From: a virus
Strand: one strand, 5' to 3'
DNA: 43,826 nt
IMG/VR virus record: IMGVR_UViG_3300042981_000018
Location: 1 to 43,826 of that record
The stretch's first letter is position 1. Every line of letters starts with the position of its first letter. Positions 4,290 to 30,883 of this stretch are shown here, one piece after another. The notes below the pieces were generated by a model. The model was not told the DNA's origin and searched no databases. It worked only from the letters and a program-made list of their open reading frames with translations. A program made the position numbers and the translations under genes.

Positions 4290-4948
4290 ACTCGTTTACT
4301 CCGATTGTTGATTTTGCGATTCAATGCGCCGCGAAGCTGCATCAATTGATTCACTTCAGGCGGGTAGTTTGTGTGGCGACTATTGCGATGCATGTTCTCC
4401 GCACGCGTGATGCACTCCAGCCGATCAAGCGTGATGTCCTGCGCGTTCGTCGTATGCCTGCCGCGCTTGAACACAACAATGCATCCCGGCGGCACATCAC
4501 CATGCACAGCCTCCCACACCATGCGATGCACAGGCTTCCAGCGCAGCCAGCGATTCGTGCCCGTTGCGACCTTGCGCAGCAGAACGCCGTCTTGCACGCG
4601 TTCGCTGCCCAGCGGAAGTTCCTTTATGGCGGCCGCGCCGTTCAAAACGCCGCTCTTGAACCAGTATTTTTCCGAGCCTAGCGGTCTGTGCGGCTTGCCC
4701 TTATTCCATGGCACGGCGCCATGTTTGAAGCGGTGCGCAAGCATGTTTGGCGTCAATGCACGACAACGCATAGCTTGCGACTCACGAGCCTTGAACGCGG
4801 CCGACTTCGACAGATGTAATTTTCTAGCCATGTTGTATACGGCTAAAACCGACCGGCCAAGCATCACGGCAACCTCTGCGGCCGTCGCGTCCGGATAAAG
4901 ACAGCGCAGTTCCTCGACCTCGTAATCCGCCCACACGCAACCACTCAT
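4286..4948 (-). CDS. HNH-type endonuclease with N-terminal HTH
   Basis: 220 aa from the ATG at 4948, which overlaps the upstream stop (ATGA); an open frame back to 5047 lies inside the preceding gene. Residues 1-50 are a Myb/GcrA-like HTH (DATAAEVAVMLGRSVLAVYN). The middle contains HGAVPWNKGKPH and GSEKYWFKSG. The C-terminal half is an HNH homing-nuclease-type module: KPVHRMVWEAVHGDVPPG, then VVFKRGRHTTN, then LECITRAENMHRNS. The usual His-His of the second strand (VVHH) is replaced by VVFKRG, a variant I associate with a phage HNH subfamily; whether it still cuts is uncertain. It sits between replication and nin-like genes. Confidence 0.8.
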   Translation of the reverse strand: MSGCVWADYEVEELRCLYPDATAAEVAVMLGRSVLAVYNMARKLHLSKSAAFKARESQAMRCRALTPNMLAHRFKHGAVPWNKGKPHRPLGSEKYWFKSGVLNGAAAIKELPLGSERVQDGVLLRKVATGTNRWLRWKPVHRMVWEAVHGDVPPGCIVVFKRGRHTTNAQDITLDRLECITRAENMHRNSRHTNYPPEVNQLMQLRGALNRKINNRSKRV

Positions 4949-5220
4949 ACTGCCCTCGCCTTGCGCACGCGCGACTGGGTTGCGTCCCATCGGCCGTCCG
5001 GCCTGTACTCGCACCATGGGCCAGGATCGCGCTTGCCGATCGACCACCCATTACCATCGTCAATGTACGCGATTGACGCGTGACTAAAGCCACCGGCACG
5101 CAGAGCGTCCAGCCACGCCGCCACACACCCCATGCCATGTGCAGCAGCATCGGCGCGGTTGCGCTCACGCTCAGCCGCAAGCCGTGAAACCTGTTGCGAT
5201 GCAAGCTCGGAAAGCTTCAT
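4945..5220 (-). CDS. Hypothetical early protein, 91 aa
   Basis: 91 aa starting MKLSELASQQVSRLAAERE; the N-terminal 35 residues look like a helix. The rest contains GFSHASIAYIDDGNGWSIG and a basic C-terminus. It begins 2 nt after the helicase gene stop and overlaps the HNH gene by ATGA, so it is firmly within the replication operon. No recognisable family. Confidence 0.65.
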   Translation of the reverse strand: MKLSELASQQVSRLAAERERNRADAAAHGMGCVAAWLDALRAGGFSHASIAYIDDGNGWSIGKRDPGPWCEYRPDGRWDATQSRVRKARAV

Positions 5221-5222
5221 GC

Positions 5223-6524
5223 TTACGCACTCCGATCCAAGTAACTAACGGTTGGCATACCACGGGCGGGCCTCGGCTTTGATTGGTTGACACCGACAGG
5301 CGCTTCGGTTTCCGTAAATGTCTGCGTACCGCCGTCAAAGTGTATAAAGCATTTACCAATCGGCCCATTGCGTTGCTTCGCAACTGTGCATGTGATCAAG
5401 TCTTTCCTTGATTCATCCGGCCGGTGTAGAAAAATCACCACGTCTGCGTCCTGCTCGATGGCACCGGAATCGCGCAGGCTGACTAGTGTAGGTTCGCGGT
5501 CACCCGCACCGCGATTCAATTGCGACAACAGAATCACCGGAATACACACATCTTTCGCCAGCGCTTTAATCTGGCGCGTAATCAACTGCACGCCGTCATT
5601 CGTGTTCTGCGCACGCGGCGGCGTTATTTGAGTCAGGTAATCAATAACGACCAATCCAAGCCGCTTGGCTGCATCAGCCTGCCGCACACGCGCGCAGATC
5701 GCATCCACGGTCAACGCGCTGGTGTCGTCGATCAGCAACGGCATCCCCGCAATAACCTCGCCGGCACGACCAATGCGCGGCCATTGTTCCTCGGTCACCT
5801 TCTTGGGTTGCCGAATGGCCTGCATGTCCACGCGTGCAATGTGCGCAATCATGCGATCCGTAAGCTGGTGGCCCGCCATTTCGAGCGACACAAACAGCGT
5901 CGGGGTGCCCGCCTTCGCGGCGTGGATCGCCGCCTGCACGGCTAGTGCTGTCTTGCCGACTGATGGGCGCGCCGCAACGATAATCAAGTCACCACGCTGC
6001 CATCCGGACAGTGATTCATCCAACCAGCCAATGGACGTTGGAACGCCGGTAAGTACCTCGGTCGCCGCGATGCGCTGCTGCATCAAGTCAACAGACGTGG
6101 TGAGGTACTCCTTGGCGTGCTTGATTGCGCTCGCAGCACGGGGTGCGCAAGTCGCCAAGATGCGTTGCGCCTCACCAAGCGCATCCTCGCCCGCCAGCTT
6201 CGCAATCCTGCCGCCCGAAGCCCGAACGCGGCGCGTGACCGCGTTGCGCTGCACGATCTCCGCGTACGCGCGAATATTGGCCGCGCCAGGCGTAGCGTTC
6301 GCGCACTCCACCGCTAACATCGCATGTTTCGGGCAGCGCTCGCCGAATGTCACCGCATCAACCGGACGCCCTGCGTGAATCGTGTCTGTGATCGCCTGCC
6401 ATATTTCCGCGTACGCATCGCGACTAAAGTCATCCGCGCCAATCAGGTCGGCAATCTGCCAGTAGGCATCCGGCGCAAGCAGGCACGCGCCGATTACCGC
6501 TGACTCCGCGTCGAACGTGTTCAT
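5223..6524 (-). CDS. dnaB: Replicative DNA helicase, DnaB family
   Basis: 433 aa, a normal length for a phage DnaB. The N-terminal domain (residues about 1-95; ESAVIGACLLAP) is the primase/loader-interaction domain. The RecA-like ATPase follows: GVPTSIGWLDESLSGWQRGD, Walker A ARPSVGKTAL, FVSLEMAGHQL, Walker B LVVIDYLTQI, then VILLSQLNRG and the DSGAIEQDADVVIFLHR arginine-finger region. It unwinds DNA at the phage fork as a hexamer on the lagging-strand template. It overlaps the initiator gene by ATGA, the usual O-P type pairing; here the phage brings its own helicase rather than a loader. Confidence 0.95.
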   Translation of the reverse strand: MNTFDAESAVIGACLLAPDAYWQIADLIGADDFSRDAYAEIWQAITDTIHAGRPVDAVTFGERCPKHAMLAVECANATPGAANIRAYAEIVQRNAVTRRVRASGGRIAKLAGEDALGEAQRILATCAPRAASAIKHAKEYLTTSVDLMQQRIAATEVLTGVPTSIGWLDESLSGWQRGDLIIVAARPSVGKTALAVQAAIHAAKAGTPTLFVSLEMAGHQLTDRMIAHIARVDMQAIRQPKKVTEEQWPRIGRAGEVIAGMPLLIDDTSALTVDAICARVRQADAAKRLGLVVIDYLTQITPPRAQNTNDGVQLITRQIKALAKDVCIPVILLSQLNRGAGDREPTLVSLRDSGAIEQDADVVIFLHRPDESRKDLITCTVAKQRNGPIGKCFIHFDGGTQTFTETEAPVGVNQSKPRPARGMPTVSYLDRSA

Positions 6525-7210
6525 GCCGCCTCCTTGTTTTCGTAATTCCCCTCAACGACCTTGCGCATGTTTTTCGGCTCAAGCAGCCAGTCGAAATTGC
6601 ACGCGTGCCACTTGCCATCGCGCCCGGTCAGGAAATCGGATTTCGCGACGTAGGCCCAAAAGTTTCGCCACCATTCGAGTGATTGCCGCTCGCGGTCTTC
6701 CCGCCACCGGGCGATGATCTTTTTCTTGCGATCGGGATCGAGCTTGCGCGGTTGTGGCATGTCGGGCAGGAGTTCCCGGTAGCCAGCGAGGATCGCTTCC
6801 GCAGGCACGTCGTCGGGCTTCGGCGCAGCCGAAACCGACAAGGCTTCTTCTTTCTCTGTAGCTTTATATGCCTCTGGTCTAGCATTTGCTAGCACTTGCA
6901 AGCATTCGCCAGCATTCGCTAGCACGCCTTCAATTGGCTCCAAAAAACCACATTCGATCAAAGGCTTAAGGTCTGGGGCCTTCGCGAGGTAGGCGACACG
7001 TTGCAGGTACGCCAGGCCAGTGGGTGACCCGTCAATTTCACCCTCATTTCGGCTTCCAACGAGCATGCAAGCGATCGCTACAACCCTGCTAGCATCCGCT
7101 AGCATCACCCAATCGGCACTCGACAACAGCTCAAAATGCAGCTTGATCCACGGCGGGTTACGGTCCTTGTAATGCTGGAAATGACTCCAATTCCGAATCC
7201 GATATTTCAT
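6521..7210 (-). CDS. Replication initiation protein, lambda O-like
   Basis: 229 aa. The N-terminus (YRIRNWSHFQHYKDRNPPW, then a winged-helix-like stretch to about residue 90) is the DNA-binding type found in phage replisome organisers. The C-terminal part (YRELLPDMPQPRKLDPDRKK, WREDRERQSLEWWRNFWAYV, NFDWLLEPKNMRKVVEGNYE) is the domain shared by many phage O-like and DnaT-like proteins that contact the helicase. The middle carries repeated LANA units encoded by 10-bp DNA iterons, as expected if the origin lies inside this gene, as in lambda O. Start and stop overlap both neighbours by ATGA. Confidence 0.8.
   Translation of the reverse strand: MKYRIRNWSHFQHYKDRNPPWIKLHFELLSSADWVMLADASRVVAIACMLVGSRNEGEIDGSPTGLAYLQRVAYLAKAPDLKPLIECGFLEPIEGVLANAGECLQVLANARPEAYKATEKEEALSVSAAPKPDDVPAEAILAGYRELLPDMPQPRKLDPDRKKKIIARWREDRERQSLEWWRNFWAYVAKSDFLTGRDGKWHACNFDWLLEPKNMRKVVEGNYENKEAA
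6879..6928. repeat. Five 10-bp iterons, candidate origin of replication
   Basis: Five contiguous 10-bp units of consensus CTAGCATTCG (unit 3 has CA and unit 4 CC in place of the leading CT). The period is exactly 10, about one helical turn, and they lie inside the O-like gene. Lambda-type origins are iterons within O, so this is the best origin candidate here. Two more units lie at 7089-7108, exactly 210 bp away and in the same 10-bp phase. Confidence 0.6.
7089..7108. repeat. Two further 10-bp iterons
   Basis: Two tandem copies of the same CTAGCATC-type unit near the 5' end of the O-like gene, in 10-bp register with the five-unit block at 6879-6928. They probably form part of the same initiator-binding region. 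Confidence 0.5.
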
Positions 7211-17028: not shown

Positions 17029-17237
17029 GCGCAAACCCGCACATTCTCGACGCTGACCAGCTCCGGGCGCTGTCCGGCAAGCGGTCGGCGGCGGCGGTGC
17101 GGCGGTGGGCGAACAATCAAGGCATCCGCACGCTCGAAGGCGCGGACGGCCCTTGGACAACCGAGGAGGCCGTCAACCGCGCACTGGGTGTAGGATCGGC
17201 GAACGACCCCGTGTACACCCCGGATCAAATCGCGTGA
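17025..17237 (+). CDS. DUF4224 excisionase-like protein
   Basis: 70 aa from a GTG overlapping the previous stop. ILDADQLRALSGKRSAAAVR, RWANNQGIRTLEGADGPWTT, EEAVNRALGV matches DUF4224 proteins, small winged-helix-like factors encoded just before phage integrases and thought to act as excisionases. GTGA overlap with int fits that role. Confidence 0.8.
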   Translation: MSANPHILDADQLRALSGKRSAAAVRRWANNQGIRTLEGADGPWTTEEAVNRALGVGSANDPVYTPDQIA

Positions 17238-18370
17238 GCCGACACCGCAAAGCCGACCCGTCTATTCCGGCGTTCATTGATCAACGCAAGCTGCCGCGCG
17301 GGTGCTACTGGAATCGGCGCGACCGCTACTGGTACGCGCTGCCTGGCGGAAAGCGGATGCGCGTAGCTGGTGCAGACGCGATGCTGTCCGACCTGCACGC
17401 AGCCATGGAAACGCTATCCGGCGTGGATCGTGGGTCGCTGGACTACATGCTTGGCCGGTTCGAGACCAGCGCGCAGTTTACCGAGCTTGCGGCCGGCACG
17501 CAGGACGACTACCGGTACTGCCGCCGCGTGTTACAAGGGTTCGAGACAAAGGTCGGTGTACCATTTGCTGAACTTCGACGTTCAGGAATTACACCGCCGG
17601 TGGTGCAACGGTTGATTGATCGGATTGCCACCGATCATCCAACCAAGGCCAACCACATCAAGCGGTATCTGTCAGCGGCGTACGGATGGGCACGGTTACG
17701 CATGGGCGTCGCTGAGAATCCCGCCAAGGGCGTCGCGCAGGCCAAGGAACGCGCAGCGAGCCGCACCCCGGACAAGGATGTCATGCGCGGCGTGGTGGCG
17801 TTCCTGCGCGCGCGCGGGCGGCGACAGCCCCATTCAAGAGGATCGGTAGCGCCGTATCTGTGGGCGGTGGCCGAAATTGCCTACCGTTGCCGGATGCGTT
17901 CAATTGAAGTGCGGGAATTGACCGACGCGGATGCGACGGCTGAGGGGGTGGTTGTGCGGCGGCGCAAAGGCAGCCTCGACAACATCACGGCATGGTGCCC
18001 GGAGTTGCGGGAAGCGTGGGACGCGCTTGCGGGGCGGCGCGATGCACTGTGGCGCGCGCACGCGGTGGTGCCGCTGGCGCCCAAGGATCGACCGCTGGTG
18101 GTCACACAATCGGGACGGCCATTGGGTCGCTACACGTTGAATACTGCATGGCGACGCGCGATGGCGCAGGCGCTCAAGGCCGGAGTGATTACGGCTGATA
18201 CGCGCTTTGGGCTGCACGGGTTGAAGCATCGCGGCGTTACCGATACGCCAGGCGGTCGCAAGGTTCGGCAAGACGCGGCGGGACACAAAACGGCGGCGAT
18301 GACTGACCGCTACAGCCACGACCTAGACGTGTATCCAGCGGCCGGCCAAAGCACGCAAAAAGCGGGTTGA
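17234..18370 (+). CDS. int: Tyrosine integrase
   Basis: 378 aa from GTG. The N-terminal arm-binding region has KLPRGCYWNRRDRYWYALPG; the SAM-like core-binding domain spans about residues 60-170 (YCRRVLQGFETKVGVPFAEL). The catalytic domain carries all conserved residues: Arg in AYRCRMRSIEVREL, Lys in RRRKGSL, H-x-x-R in GLHGLKHRGVT, His in DAAGHKTAAMT and Tyr in DRYSHDLD. It lacks the extra helix of integron IntI enzymes, so it is a phage integrase. Located next to attP with the DUF4224 gene upstream; it would integrate the phage into tRNA-Asn. Confidence 0.95.
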   Translation: MSRHRKADPSIPAFIDQRKLPRGCYWNRRDRYWYALPGGKRMRVAGADAMLSDLHAAMETLSGVDRGSLDYMLGRFETSAQFTELAAGTQDDYRYCRRVLQGFETKVGVPFAELRRSGITPPVVQRLIDRIATDHPTKANHIKRYLSAAYGWARLRMGVAENPAKGVAQAKERAASRTPDKDVMRGVVAFLRARGRRQPHSRGSVAPYLWAVAEIAYRCRMRSIEVRELTDADATAEGVVVRRRKGSLDNITAWCPELREAWDALAGRRDALWRAHAVVPLAPKDRPLVVTQSGRPLGRYTLNTAWRRAMAQALKAGVITADTRFGLHGLKHRGVTDTPGGRKVRQDAAGHKTAAMTDRYSHDLDVYPAAGQSTQKAG

Positions 18371-25194: not shown

Positions 25195-25551
25195 TCAGAA
25201 GCTCGCTACGATTGGGGTATTGGTGTCCGTGCTGACCACAATCACGGAGCCGGTGAGCTGGCGGTTCTTGTTCAGCCCAAGGCTGACCGTCGTCACCGAC
25301 AGCACGCCTGGCACAGAAAATGCAGCCTGCTCAAGCAGGTTGGTGATGTAGGATGCGGGCGGGAGTTTGCCGAGTAGGTTCTGGAAGTACGGCAGGCCCA
25401 GCGTCACGTCGTACCAGCATTCGCCCAGAAATGTGCGAATCGCAGACGCCACGTCCTGCGCGATGCTGTAGTCAGGATCGGCTAGGGCTAGGTTCCCAAG
25501 GTGATCCAGTTCCAGATCCCAGCTTGTGGTGTTGAGTGGTAGAGTCTGCAT
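25195..25551 (-). CDS. Baseplate gp25/GPW-like protein
   Basis: 118 aa: LALADPDYSIAQDVASAIRT, FLGECWYDVTLGLPYFQNLL, IVVSTDTNTPIVASF. Fits the gp25/GPW family that starts sheath polymerisation in contractile tails. Its neighbour on the start side is the opposite-strand TonB-like moron, 22 nt away, which separates it from the spike gene. Confidence 0.88.
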   Translation of the reverse strand: MQTLPLNTTSWDLELDHLGNLALADPDYSIAQDVASAIRTFLGECWYDVTLGLPYFQNLLGKLPPASYITNLLEQAAFSVPGVLSVTTVSLGLNKNRQLTGSVIVVSTDTNTPIVASF

Positions 25552-25573
25552 GTCTTAGCTACAGGGAAAGGTT

Positions 25574-26299
25574 ATGAAACGGCTCATTGTCTGTTTTGCG
25601 ATGTTTTTGTTATCGGTATCCAGCGTTGCAGGCGCAGGCGAATCGATAAGTGGCGTCGCAAAGTGGACGCCACCCATGTATGCAAACGCCGTTTCGTCTC
25701 AAGGCTGGAAGGAATTGTCCGACACCGGTCAATATCGAATCTGGACTACTTCCGTACAGGTAAAAAAACCTCGGTTCGGAATGATGGTTTCGCTGAAAAC
25801 GGCAGAGAAAGGTGTTGATGGAAGCGTTACAAACGTCAGCATCGTGAGCGTCGAAGCAGTTTGCGGAGCAAACGGGACACCGCCCAACTATGTACAAATG
25901 GGTATGTCTGAATCATTCGACGAGCATGGCCCTATTTCTGGTGATGCTGGCGGCCCAACGGTAAGGCTTGTCCCGGACACGAATCTGGCTGTTGCTGTAC
26001 AGCGAGCATGCAAGACGGTTCGAGCGCCCATCGCCGAAGCTGAGCCACCCTCCCCATCAAAGCCTTGTTCCACTCCAAATGCCGATTACCCCATTCAAGC
26101 TATTCGCCAAGGTCATCAGGGCATCGTCTATATGATGCTGACTATGGGAGCCAATGAGCGCCCTACCGATGTTCGCGTTTATAAGTCGTCAGGCTTTCCG
26201 GAGCTTGATGCGTCTGCCGTGCAAGCCATGACAAACGTTGTTTGCAATGACGCTCCCGGAACGCACGTCGGCATGCCGGTAACGTTCAGTCTTCACTAA
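25574..26299 (+). CDS. Secreted TonB C-terminal-domain protein (moron)
   Basis: 241 aa on the plus strand inside a minus-strand late operon. Signal peptide MKRLIVCFAMFLLSVSSVAG with cleavage near AGA. Residues about 155-241 match TonB C-terminal domains: NADYPIQAIRQGHQGIVYMM, TMGANERPTDVRVYKSSGFP, ELDASAVQAMTNV. There is no TM anchor beyond the signal peptide. The strand and the interruption of baseplate genes mark it as a moron likely expressed in the lysogen. A periplasmic TonB-like protein might interfere with TonB-dependent receptors and thus exclude other phages; this is inference. Confidence 0.8.
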   Translation: MKRLIVCFAMFLLSVSSVAGAGESISGVAKWTPPMYANAVSSQGWKELSDTGQYRIWTTSVQVKKPRFGMMVSLKTAEKGVDGSVTNVSIVSVEAVCGANGTPPNYVQMGMSESFDEHGPISGDAGGPTVRLVPDTNLAVAVQRACKTVRAPIAEAEPPSPSKPCSTPNADYPIQAIRQGHQGIVYMMLTMGANERPTDVRVYKSSGFPELDASAVQAMTNVVCNDAPGTHVGMPVTFSLH

Positions 26300-27030
26300 C
26301 CTGTAGGTGTTGCGGTGTTGCTACTACCCGACTGCACGCCCGGATGCGTGTGCGCGCTGACCGTGTGGCCACCGTTGAAAATGCCTTCACCAGCGAAGGT
26401 CGCAGTATTGTCGCCCGTCACCGCGCCGCTGACCGCGATTCCTGAACCGTTGATCGTGATCGAATGACCACCGAAGCTCAGCACGATGCCGGAACTGTTC
26501 ATGACCACGCGCGCGGCGTTGCTGTCGGTGCCGATCTGTTCCGTGATCGTTTCCGGCGAGTTGAGCGTGATGCCGTTGTCAGGATCGAATTGAAGGTACT
26601 GTGTGGGCTCGGCGTTCAGCGTCGCGCCCATGTAAAACCCGTCGGCCAGACTGAACCGGCGGTTCGACCCCGGTGCCGATTGTTGCAGGCTGGCAACCAC
26701 TGCGGACACGTCGCGATCCGCGAAACACACAAGACCAATGTCGCCGACGGCCGGGTCAAGGATTACCGCGCTCGTGCCTCCCTGCCAGCGCAGGTAAGGC
26801 AGTCCGTACAGCACCGGAAGCGCCGTGACGTTGCCAGCGCTGTCCGTCTGTTGCACCAACGGCTGCACGTCCACGCGCCCAACGGGCGCCAGGCCGCCGC
26901 CATGCACAGCAACTACCTGCACCGGCATCGTGGTACGCACGGATGCCATAGCTGCACGGAACGCAAAGGACCATGCGGTAAACGGAGTTCCACCAGCTGT
27001 GTCGCTGGTAATCGAACTATTGCTGGCCAT
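26296..27030 (-). CDS. Baseplate spike protein (Gp138/gpV-type OB fold)
   Basis: 244 aa from the ATG at 27030 (TGATG overlap with the hub gene). N-terminal OB-fold: MPVQVVAVHGGGLAPVGRVD, VQPLVQQTDSAGNVTALPVL, GDIGLVCFADRDVSAVVASL. C-terminal beta-helix-like strands (ARVVMNSSGIVLSFGGHSIT) and HTVSAHTHPGVQSGSSNTAT, an HxH metal-binding tip. This is the membrane-piercing spike. Next to the moron, which it overlaps tail-to-tail by 4 nt. Confidence 0.88.
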   Translation of the reverse strand: MASNSSITSDTAGGTPFTAWSFAFRAAMASVRTTMPVQVVAVHGGGLAPVGRVDVQPLVQQTDSAGNVTALPVLYGLPYLRWQGGTSAVILDPAVGDIGLVCFADRDVSAVVASLQQSAPGSNRRFSLADGFYMGATLNAEPTQYLQFDPDNGITLNSPETITEQIGTDSNAARVVMNSSGIVLSFGGHSITINGSGIAVSGAVTGDNTATFAGEGIFNGGHTVSAHTHPGVQSGSSNTATPTG

Positions 27031-27971
27031 CAGCCACGCGCCGAAACGCCCTTGGCTACCACATGCGCGTGAGTGAACCACGGGCCGCCCGGCATTTCGG
27101 ACGAAAGCTCGTGTTCCACCATCCGAATAAAGAGGTTGCTCGACGGGATACCTGGAACGGGTACGGCGTTCGGTGCACTCGATGCCTTCAGGTTCATAAA
27201 TCTCCCAACCTGAACTTCAGGATTAAATTCCATCGTCACGTCGAACCCCATCATGCTGTACTCAGGGTATCCGACCATCCCCAGGCTAGGGCCCGTATCA
27301 ATTGTCACGCCATCGATGTTCGAGTTACCGTCCCACACGGTCAGCGTGCCGCCCTGAAGTGTGTAAGACGTGCCGGAATCCATGCAGATGGATCGAATTT
27401 GCTGCTCCGGCGATCCCGCGTAGGCAGGGTTTGATAGCTGCGCGGAGATGCCTTTGTTTACGAAAGTCACCGGCGGATCGCAAGCGGCGCAGATGCCTTG
27501 CAACATCGTGGCTACATCGCCTGAACCTTGTACGCTTGTGCCTGGAATCGCTTGCGTCTGTTGATCCGCAGCACCGTAGCAGTCCAATTCCAGCAGCACG
27601 TCTGGCATGGCATTGTAGTTCAGGCGCGCTTGTTGGATGGTTCCCGCGAATACTTGAGCGGCATTCGCAAAGCCGCCGTCATCGTAAGCGAACACCGAAA
27701 CCTTGTTTTTGTTGATGCGCGTAATGTCCATGCCAAGTGTTGAGAGCTTCGCCATGTCCGCCGGCTTCATTCCGAACAGTTGAAACAGGCCGCGTCCCAC
27801 AAATGGAGATAACCCGCCTTGCGCCGTTTGGATGGATGCTACGCTCCGAATGTCATGGATGTTGAGCGTGTTGCTCCCGTTGTCGAATGCTTCTTGGGCG
27901 TTCCCAGGAAGACTGAAGCTCCCCTGATTTAATTCGATAATGTATTGAAGGTGGCGCTTCGTGAAGCTCAT
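27030..27971 (-). CDS. Baseplate hub protein
   Basis: 313 aa: KRHLQYIIELNQGSFSLPGN, RSVASIQTAQGGLSPFVGRG, LTVWDGNSNIDGVTIDTGPS, GMVGYPEYSMMGFDVTMEFN. The beta-barrel pattern and position between plug and spike match gp44/gpD-type hubs of this myophage group. ATGA-coupled upstream. Confidence 0.8.
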   Translation of the reverse strand: MSFTKRHLQYIIELNQGSFSLPGNAQEAFDNGSNTLNIHDIRSVASIQTAQGGLSPFVGRGLFQLFGMKPADMAKLSTLGMDITRINKNKVSVFAYDDGGFANAAQVFAGTIQQARLNYNAMPDVLLELDCYGAADQQTQAIPGTSVQGSGDVATMLQGICAACDPPVTFVNKGISAQLSNPAYAGSPEQQIRSICMDSGTSYTLQGGTLTVWDGNSNIDGVTIDTGPSLGMVGYPEYSMMGFDVTMEFNPEVQVGRFMNLKASSAPNAVPVPGIPSSNLFIRMVEHELSSEMPGGPWFTHAHVVAKGVSARG

Positions 27972-29029: not shown

Positions 29030-30883
29030 TCAGGCCAGCGCCGTCACGGAACCGGCAATCAGCGGGTTGTCGCGGAAGGCCTCGCGCAACCCGTTCCCCA
29101 AGCCCATGGCAATGCCGTTGGCGTCCGTGGCTTTGGTCTGTACGTTGATCGGCCCGTTGATCGTCACGCTGTTCGTGGACGCGGAGTTGCCAGACTTCGG
29201 CGACTCGGTCCGGGCCCCCACGTATCCACTCATGCTGCCCAATACCTTCGAGATGTAATCGCTGGTCTCCTGTGGCAGCGCGCCCATACCCTTGCGCTGC
29301 ACGTTGCCAGGGCCCCAGTTGTAGGCGGCTATGGCCTCTGGAACGTTCCCGTTGAATTGCGCGATCAGGTTGTGCAGATAGCGCGCGGCCGCATCTGCCG
29401 CTTTGCCGGTATCGTTTACGTCAGAGCCTTTCAACCCGTATTGCGCTGCCGTAGCGGGCATGAACTGGAACGGGCCTAGCGCGCCTTTGGGTGACACCAG
29501 ATGCTTGCCGCGTGAGGATTCCGCGCTGTAAACCGAATCGAGCAACCCGGACGGCAGATCGTACTTGGATTCGAGACTGGAAAACGTTTGCGCGACAGCC
29601 TTGTCCTGCGCGGCCTTCTGGCGAGCGATACCGGCTTGCTGCTCCGGGCTGTTCCAGTCCACTTCATCCTCGTAGGTGCCGTCCGCGCGCCGCTTACCAC
29701 CTGTGCTTTCGCTGTGAAATAGCGCCCATATGGGAAGGGCCCAAGGGATCGCCCTGGCGAGAAGTCCCGCGCTACCACCAGTCGCCGCGGCCTCACCTGC
29801 GCCAGCCGCCGCTGCGCCAGTACCGCCGGCTGCCGCACCTGCGGCACCTGCAGCGGCCGCGGCGCGAGCCGCAAAAAGTGCACCGGTCAGGGACTTCAGC
29901 TTGATCACCCATCCCGCAATGCTCACGGCCCACCCGAACACCTTGATCGCAGCGATCTCGAGCAGGACGCCTTTGACGCCTCCGAGCGCGTTGATGAGCT
30001 TGTTGAGCTGGCCAAGGAATTTGCCGATCTGATCGATGACCTTGTCCCAATCGACGCTGTTCACCCAATCTGCAAACTGGGTGCCGAGCTTGATAAGGAT
30101 GGGCTCGAGCTTGTCGAAGACTTTGTTCCTTATGGCCTCCATCTTCAGCTGGAATAGGCCCCACTGCTTCTGCATCTCCTGCGCTTTCGCGGAGGTTTCG
30201 CCAGTTACTCCTCCGATTTCACGCATTGCGTCCGCGTAGTCCCGAGCGAGCGCATCCGGGCTTTTGGTCATCTCGGTTTGCAGGTTGAAATCGCTGATCC
30301 CAAGCTGTCCGAGGATGCTGATGGCTTGCTGCTCGCCGTATTTCTGGCGTATCTTGAACGCCATCACGTTGAGCTTGTGCATCGCCGACTCAACATTATC
30401 GTTGAGCCCAAGTATGTTGCCGTGTTCATCTGCCGCGCCGTACTTATTGGCCGTGGTCAAGAACGTGGTATCGCCCCTGCGCGCCGCGGCCAGCCCATCC
30501 GAAACCTTCTGCAATGCCTGCGCGGCTACGTCGCCCGAGCTTCCAACCTGCATCGCGACGCCACGCCATGCCTGCAGCGACTTGATGGAAATGCCCAAGG
30601 CCCCCGACATGCGGCCAAGTTGTGCCTGCCCGTTGATGCTGGATTCGATGAAGCTCTTGAATCCCGCGCCCATACCGAACGCTGCCAACGCGCCAAGGAT
30701 CTCGATCTTGAGTGCAGAGAACGCGCTGGCAGCTTTCTTCCCATGCTCCGCAATAAGCTTGGTCTGCTTGGCCGATGCATCGCCGAACTTCTTCAGCGAT
30801 GCGTTGACCTCCTTGCGCTTTTTCTCGTACTCACGATCGTCAAGGCCAAGCGTGATGAAGAAGGCGTCAATGATGTTTGACAC
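29030..30883 (-). CDS. Tape measure protein with lytic transglycosylase domain
   Basis: 617 aa. Begins MSNIIDAFFITLGLDDREYE, KKRKEVNASLKKFGDASAKQ, then long helices and Ala/Gly-rich hydrophobic segments (AAAAAGAAGAAAGGTGAAAA). Residues about 455-575 are an SLT/lysozyme-like domain: SKYDLPSGLLDSVYSAESSR, GALGPFQFMPATAAQYGLKG, ARYLHNLIAQFNGNVPEAIA, AYNWGPGNVQR. The catalytic Glu is in YSAESSRG. Sets tail length and opens peptidoglycan during injection. Starts 1 nt beyond the chaperone frameshift product. Confidence 0.92.
   Translation of the reverse strand: MSNIIDAFFITLGLDDREYEKKRKEVNASLKKFGDASAKQTKLIAEHGKKAASAFSALKIEILGALAAFGMGAGFKSFIESSINGQAQLGRMSGALGISIKSLQAWRGVAMQVGSSGDVAAQALQKVSDGLAAARRGDTTFLTTANKYGAADEHGNILGLNDNVESAMHKLNVMAFKIRQKYGEQQAISILGQLGISDFNLQTEMTKSPDALARDYADAMREIGGVTGETSAKAQEMQKQWGLFQLKMEAIRNKVFDKLEPILIKLGTQFADWVNSVDWDKVIDQIGKFLGQLNKLINALGGVKGVLLEIAAIKVFGWAVSIAGWVIKLKSLTGALFAARAAAAAGAAGAAAGGTGAAAAGAGEAAATGGSAGLLARAIPWALPIWALFHSESTGGKRRADGTYEDEVDWNSPEQQAGIARQKAAQDKAVAQTFSSLESKYDLPSGLLDSVYSAESSRGKHLVSPKGALGPFQFMPATAAQYGLKGSDVNDTGKAADAAARYLHNLIAQFNGNVPEAIAAYNWGPGNVQRKGMGALPQETSDYISKVLGSMSGYVGARTESPKSGNSASTNSVTINGPINVQTKATDANGIAMGLGNGLREAFRDNPLIAGSVTALA

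Follow-up and report, generated by a model that had tools for sequence, protein, structure and literature searches.

A cargo gene between the baseplate genes of a probable temperate phage, encoding an exported protein with protein-E-like and TonB C-terminal domains and a tentative role in superinfection exclusion

What could a tailed phage gain from a gene for an exported protein with a TonB C-terminal domain, placed between two baseplate genes and read from the opposite strand? The question is raised by the window analyzed here, i.e., the whole stretch of 43,826 nucleotides of viral DNA, in which an uninterrupted ATG open reading frame for 241 amino acids lies at 25574-26299 on the plus strand (Table 1). 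The 43.8-kb window also encodes a DnaB-like helicase, RecT, a portal protein and a terminase, and together with the integrase these make a temperate tailed phage the most likely identity of the virus. The gene is antisense to both flanking baseplate genes (gp25-like and spike), and its stop overlaps that of the spike gene. A first-pass annotation had described a 241-residue protein with a signal peptide and a TonB C-terminal domain, encoded against gp25-like and spike genes, and all of this was confirmed by the reading frame, the rule-based signal, the domain match and the assignment of both minus-strand flanks. Its label of a late gene has to be dropped, since the gene runs antisense to the late operon. 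Neither a sigma-70-like consensus promoter (non-consensus promoters may exist) nor a terminator above chance was found for it.

Table 1. Positions in the window of the cargo gene, its parts and its surroundings.
Feature	Position	Strand	Basis
Integrase, indicating a temperate phage	17105..18370	+	phrog_1, 9e-28; weak Pfam Phage_integrase match below cut-off
gp25-like baseplate wedge gene, left slot border	25195..25551	-	phrog_120, 3e-29
Cargo slot, gp25 start to spike stop	25552..26295	.	Junction comparison; 3-6 nt in empty relatives
Shine-Dalgarno-like AGGGAAAGG	25563..25571	+	Sequence reading
Cargo (moron) gene, 241-aa exported two-domain protein	25574..26299	+	ORF; same-slot homologues in L002, L003 and L009; purifying selection
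Signal peptide, probable cleavage after AGA (residue 21)	25574..25636	+	Rule-based; form conserved in L002, L003 and L009
Domain A, protein-E-like (residues 23-152)	25640..26029	+	AlphaFold2, structure comparison, profile match to L038/L042 cargo
Short Pro-containing linker (residues 153-164)	26030..26065	+	Alignment, low pLDDT
TonB C-terminal domain (HMM match residues 169-239)	26066..26296	+	Pfam, NCBIfam, fold match
Spike/baseplate gene, right slot border	26296..27081	-	tblastn to annotated phage baseplate spike proteins

The junction was then compared with that of related phage records (labeled L002, L003 and so on), most of which are metagenome contigs. The spike stop lies 3 nt before the gp25 start in L004 and L005, two phages with spike and gp25 proteins that share 82-86% identity with those of the window, and 6 nt before it in L007. 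The window gene thus interrupts a gene pair that stands side by side in these relatives, and its third-position GC content (GC3) is 0.51, as compared to 0.72-0.73 in gp25 and spike; the term moron, also proposed earlier, is therefore appropriate. Among ten distinct close junctions (gp25 at least 65% identical, window included), the slot is filled in seven and empty in three, and it is empty in most of the 73 distant junctions. Four phages, namely the window, L002, L003 and L009, carry a protein-E-like plus TonB_C protein, L008 carries a protein of the Ltp family (PF07553, 7.2e-27) and an AlpA-like regulator, and L029 and L034 carry small secreted proteins without a family; in farther relatives, the slot holds two secreted genes in L037 and one each in L038 and L042. 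All verified cargo genes run antisense. A simple rule for signal peptides is passed by 10 of the 11 cargo proteins, as compared to 2 of 39 genes of the window (p 7e-8); cleaved signals and membrane anchors are indistinguishable by this rule, and the N-terminal signal of the L008 cargo is more likely an anchor. The eleventh protein, encoded by the second L037 gene, appears signal peptide-like by eye. These eleven proteins are not independent, as the four with TonB_C are related. A 215-aa antisense ORF in L043 and L047 was rejected as cargo, having neither an export signal nor a family, and other long gaps in distant relatives corresponded to same-strand genes or a misplaced spike end, so that no antisense cargo was accepted there.

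Terminator-like hairpins of textbook form, followed by a T run and read in the late-operon direction, were observed 10-30 nt before the gp25 start in L029 (approximately 4920-4990), L037, L038 and L042, and strong hairpins are also present in the cargo-free junctions of L036, L039 and L054 (gaps of 80-104 nt); none was seen in the window, L002, L003, L009 or L034. In the hairpin-bearing phages, the junction may represent an operon boundary.

Homologues of the window protein were identified by scans of viral contigs in L002 (77% identity), L003 (69% by tblastn, 67% across the full alignment) and L009 (37%), in each case in the same position and orientation as the window gene. Cysteines C97, C146, C165 and C224 of the mature protein are kept in all four sequences. 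Moreover, dN/dS (omega) for the cargo ranges between 0.1 and 0.2, and is 0.18-0.19 for the whole gene among the window, L002 and L003, which indicates purifying selection and, together with the same-position homologues in three other phages, contradicts a chance reading frame. The cargo is AT-richer than its neighbors, with GC3 values of 0.51-0.62 in the four TonB_C phages against 0.71-0.85 in the flanking genes. Beyond these relatives, the protein had no match in 50,697 phage records, its N-terminal half had none in plasmids, and pattern scans of bacterial genome contigs, the sole cellular search, gave no match either. PHROGs held no family for it, PADLOC returned none, and our literature search found no description of phage-encoded anchorless TonB_C or protein-E-like proteins. 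Paraburkholderia replicons that matched the TonB_C half of the L009 protein did so over 48 residues at 33% identity, in unannotated or hypothetical stretches only, and were discarded as too weak for naming a host.

Concerning export, the N-terminus, MKRLIVCFAMFLLSVSSVAGA, has the form of a signal peptide, and the same rule-based reading gave neither a second hydrophobic helix nor a lipobox cysteine. No lasting N-terminal membrane anchor is thus predicted by rule, in agreement with the earlier description of a TonB C-terminal domain without a transmembrane anchor; TonB energy transducers do carry one. The likeness to TonB C-terminal proteins (PF03544/TIGR01352) consists of profile matches above cut-off, with Pfam TonB_C at E 2.9e-11 (44.1 bits against a cut-off of 24.6) and NCBIfam tonB_Cterm at 2.2e-11, and of fold matches reaching Z 9.2, the value obtained with the TonB protein of N. 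meningitidis. In addition to the missing anchor, the window protein differs from these proteins in having no long proline-rich linker, in its fusion to a protein-E-like domain, and in an extra disulfide that likely joins C165 and C224 within the domain. Moreover, the residue pair HF of the Neisseria protein aligns with VC here; given this substitution and the likely disulfide, binding to TonB boxes cannot be assumed. C-terminal fragments of TonB in the periplasm interfere with the functions of host TonB, a piece of background to which we give no weight as evidence. TonB_C exceeds the cut-off only in the window, L002, L003 and L009, and other cargo proteins of the slot without it either keep domain A (L037, L038 and L042) or have neither domain (L008, L029 and L034). 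By sequence comparison, TonB_C thus looks like an optional, exchangeable module rather than the common effector of the slot.

The domain content given by the first-pass annotation stood as far as TonB_C is concerned, while domain A, which makes up residues 23-152, had been overlooked. Its profile matches that of the L038/L042 cargo (probability 96, E 4e-9), and it aligns with one L037 cargo protein, in which both of its cysteines are kept; in L037, L038 and L042 it occurs without TonB_C. It was found in 6 of the 50 related phage records, always in slot genes, and on these sequence comparisons we regard domain A as a module of its own and the common core of this type of cargo. AlphaFold2, run on alignments of four and seven sequences, gave a modest pLDDT of 62 for the whole protein and a better one of 80 for domain A. 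The best-supported solved fold for the latter is protein E of H. influenzae, with Z 8.8 over 104 residues in the first model and Z 7.5-7.7, tied with TdeM of P. aeruginosa, in the second; taken alone, such values could reflect a common arrangement. Protein E was not among the best Foldseek matches listed for either model, and the top viral structure matches include a predicted phage protein named 'Surface-adhesin protein E'. The likeness is strengthened by the cysteines: C97, at the end of strand 4, and C146, in the helix, are 49 residues apart and invariant in seven sequences, and according to the model they probably form a disulfide that corresponds in placement and spacing to the strand-4-to-helix Cys81-Cys130 bridge of protein E (PMC6652776). 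By prediction, a six-stranded sheet with a C-terminal helix may be shared as well. The window protein differs from protein E in being phage-encoded and fused to TonB_C, with 13-18% identity over the structural alignment, and as Pfam scans at E up to 5 gave no match to the protein-E family, we call domain A protein-E-like, and not a member. A further Pfam candidate for this domain, Gln-synt_N_2 (E 0.04-0.11), was far below cut-off and was rejected.

Comparison of the window with L003 points to separate recombination of the two domains, as judged from sequence: domain A is 84% identical and the flanks are 82-86% identical, against 46% for TonB_C, and the step in amino-acid identity across the domain boundary is significant (p 1e-6). 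At four-fold sites, too, the two sequences diverge more beyond the boundary (35/73 vs. 20/27), although the p of 0.024 is marginal; this favors recombination over faster protein evolution. Between the window and L009, gp25 is 81% identical and the cargo 37%. Given these divergent identities of the cargo, its domains and the flanks, the whole cargo as well as its parts appear to have been swapped among phages. Another case concerns L034 (4529-4978, minus strand) and L009 (5713-6594, minus strand), in which nearly identical signal-peptide ends (ASYAQQP) precede mature proteins that look unrelated; this suggests exchange directly behind the signal peptide.

Sequence analysis thus establishes that the gene is inserted, that it encodes an export signal and two domains, that modules are exchanged and that selection is purifying. 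As relatives fill the same spot with other exported proteins, one of the Ltp family, the gene probably represents cargo by which the infected bacterium is protected or altered, and its product is most likely a periplasmic lysogenic-conversion protein. Phage exclusion, already considered in the first-pass annotation, is a reasonable function for it, and superinfection exclusion at the envelope is our leading, if tentative, reading, to which we assign somewhat less than an even chance. It would follow by association from a single neighbor, the Ltp-family protein of L008, which by analogy is the strongest functional pointer. Ltp of phage TP-J34 is a demonstrated prototype of superinfection exclusion that acts outside the cytoplasmic membrane, and its repeat domain is functional without the lipid anchor (PMC3952083). 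The likeness lies in the equivalent slot of L008, in the temperate phages involved and in the site of action, whereas the window protein has no Ltp repeats detectable by Pfam. Moreover, Glo of Vibrio phage K139 is described in PMC3952083 as a soluble periplasmic prophage protein in superinfection exclusion, a precedent for an exclusion protein of this kind; its likeness to the window protein would lie in this description, and its genomic setting differs. In the proposed mechanism, the cargo gene, located in a hot spot that a group of temperate tailed phages has at the spike-gp25 junction, would be expressed by the prophage independently of the late genes. The soluble two-domain protein would reside in the periplasm and bind a host receptor, an entry factor located there or a component of the incoming phage, and in this way prevent other phages from entering at the envelope. 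TonB_C would supply one binding specificity, e.g., for the TonB box of a TonB-dependent receptor.

The lack of a recognized promoter or terminator speaks against the exclusion reading, and protein-E-like adhesins elsewhere fit equally well with an effect on host fitness. Lysogenic conversion of the latter type (surface attachment, envelope stability or nutrient uptake), with no anti-phage role, nevertheless seems unlikely to us: it agrees with the protein-E-like fold, known from the H. influenzae adhesin, with the names of solved structures, by which protein-E-like proteins elsewhere are adhesins, and with the fitness morons at Burkholderia prophage hot spots (PMC2920897), but the speed with which cargo and domains are exchanged at this one site, and the presence of an Ltp protein in the slot, fit better with conflict between phages. 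Slightly less likely still, in our view, is the mechanism put forward in the first-pass annotation, competition of the anchorless TonB C-terminal domain with host TonB for receptor TonB boxes, by which TonB-dependent uptake and the entry of phages or bacteriocins would be lowered. The domain is a true one by profile and fold, it is exported without an anchor, and soluble TonB fragments bind TonB-dependent receptors and their TonB boxes in vitro (PMC11658791); however, most other slot cargo, including proteins with domain A, has no TonB_C, and the VC pair and the likely disulfide count against such binding. As the TonB_C half could still bind TonB boxes, this competition would be one mode of exclusion. 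That the protein serves the phage itself, in baseplate assembly, the spike or lysis, is suggested by the location between two baseplate genes, and is very improbable for a gene that is antisense to the late operon, differs from its neighbors in base composition and is absent from relatives with intact spike and gp25. Finally, the antisense position inside an operon and the unrecognized promoter would suit a neutral passenger or a decaying gene without function, a view that is hardly credible when homologues as divergent as 37% identity have retained an open frame, the signal peptide and each of the four cysteines, and that the dN/dS among the three closest sequences contradicts.

Extending the exclusion reading to the junction as a whole, the latter would be a dedicated exclusion locus for modular periplasmic anti-entry proteins, in which a protein-E-like core is combined with interchangeable binding modules, such as TonB_C, of swappable specificity; this is a rather doubtful proposal at present. 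If it holds, candidates for periplasmic anti-phage proteins could be found by reading one junction, and phage protein-E-like and anchorless TonB_C proteins would gain a testable role. If the benefit is host fitness instead, the slot would still offer a compact example of how phages reshuffle exported domains at one defined place. Burkholderia prophages likewise have hot spots for morons, some of which are expressed in lysogens (PMC2920897), and the slot resembles these hot spots in its varied accessory genes of different GC content between two conserved genes; it differs from them in that the cargo is always antisense, carries an export or membrane signal, and has its domains shuffled among cargo proteins.

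Some additional observations were made in the course of this work. In L008, the Ltp-family gene (5786-6493, minus strand) has the AlpA-like regulator just upstream (6497-6778, minus strand), and this phage is apparently one of Gram-negative bacteria, while the literature consulted places the Ltp family in Gram-positive bacteria and their phages. L029 (4477-4947, minus strand) and L037 (2792-3271, minus strand) encode a second family of small secreted cargo proteins (29% identity, E 1e-24), which has no Pfam match. Moreover, a tape-measure-like protein of the window (29030-30883, minus strand) has a C-terminal region that is lytic transglycosylase-like (phrog_2013, 5e-74), and the C-terminal part of its L003 counterpart is different by eye, which suggests that a cell-wall-cutting domain has been exchanged.
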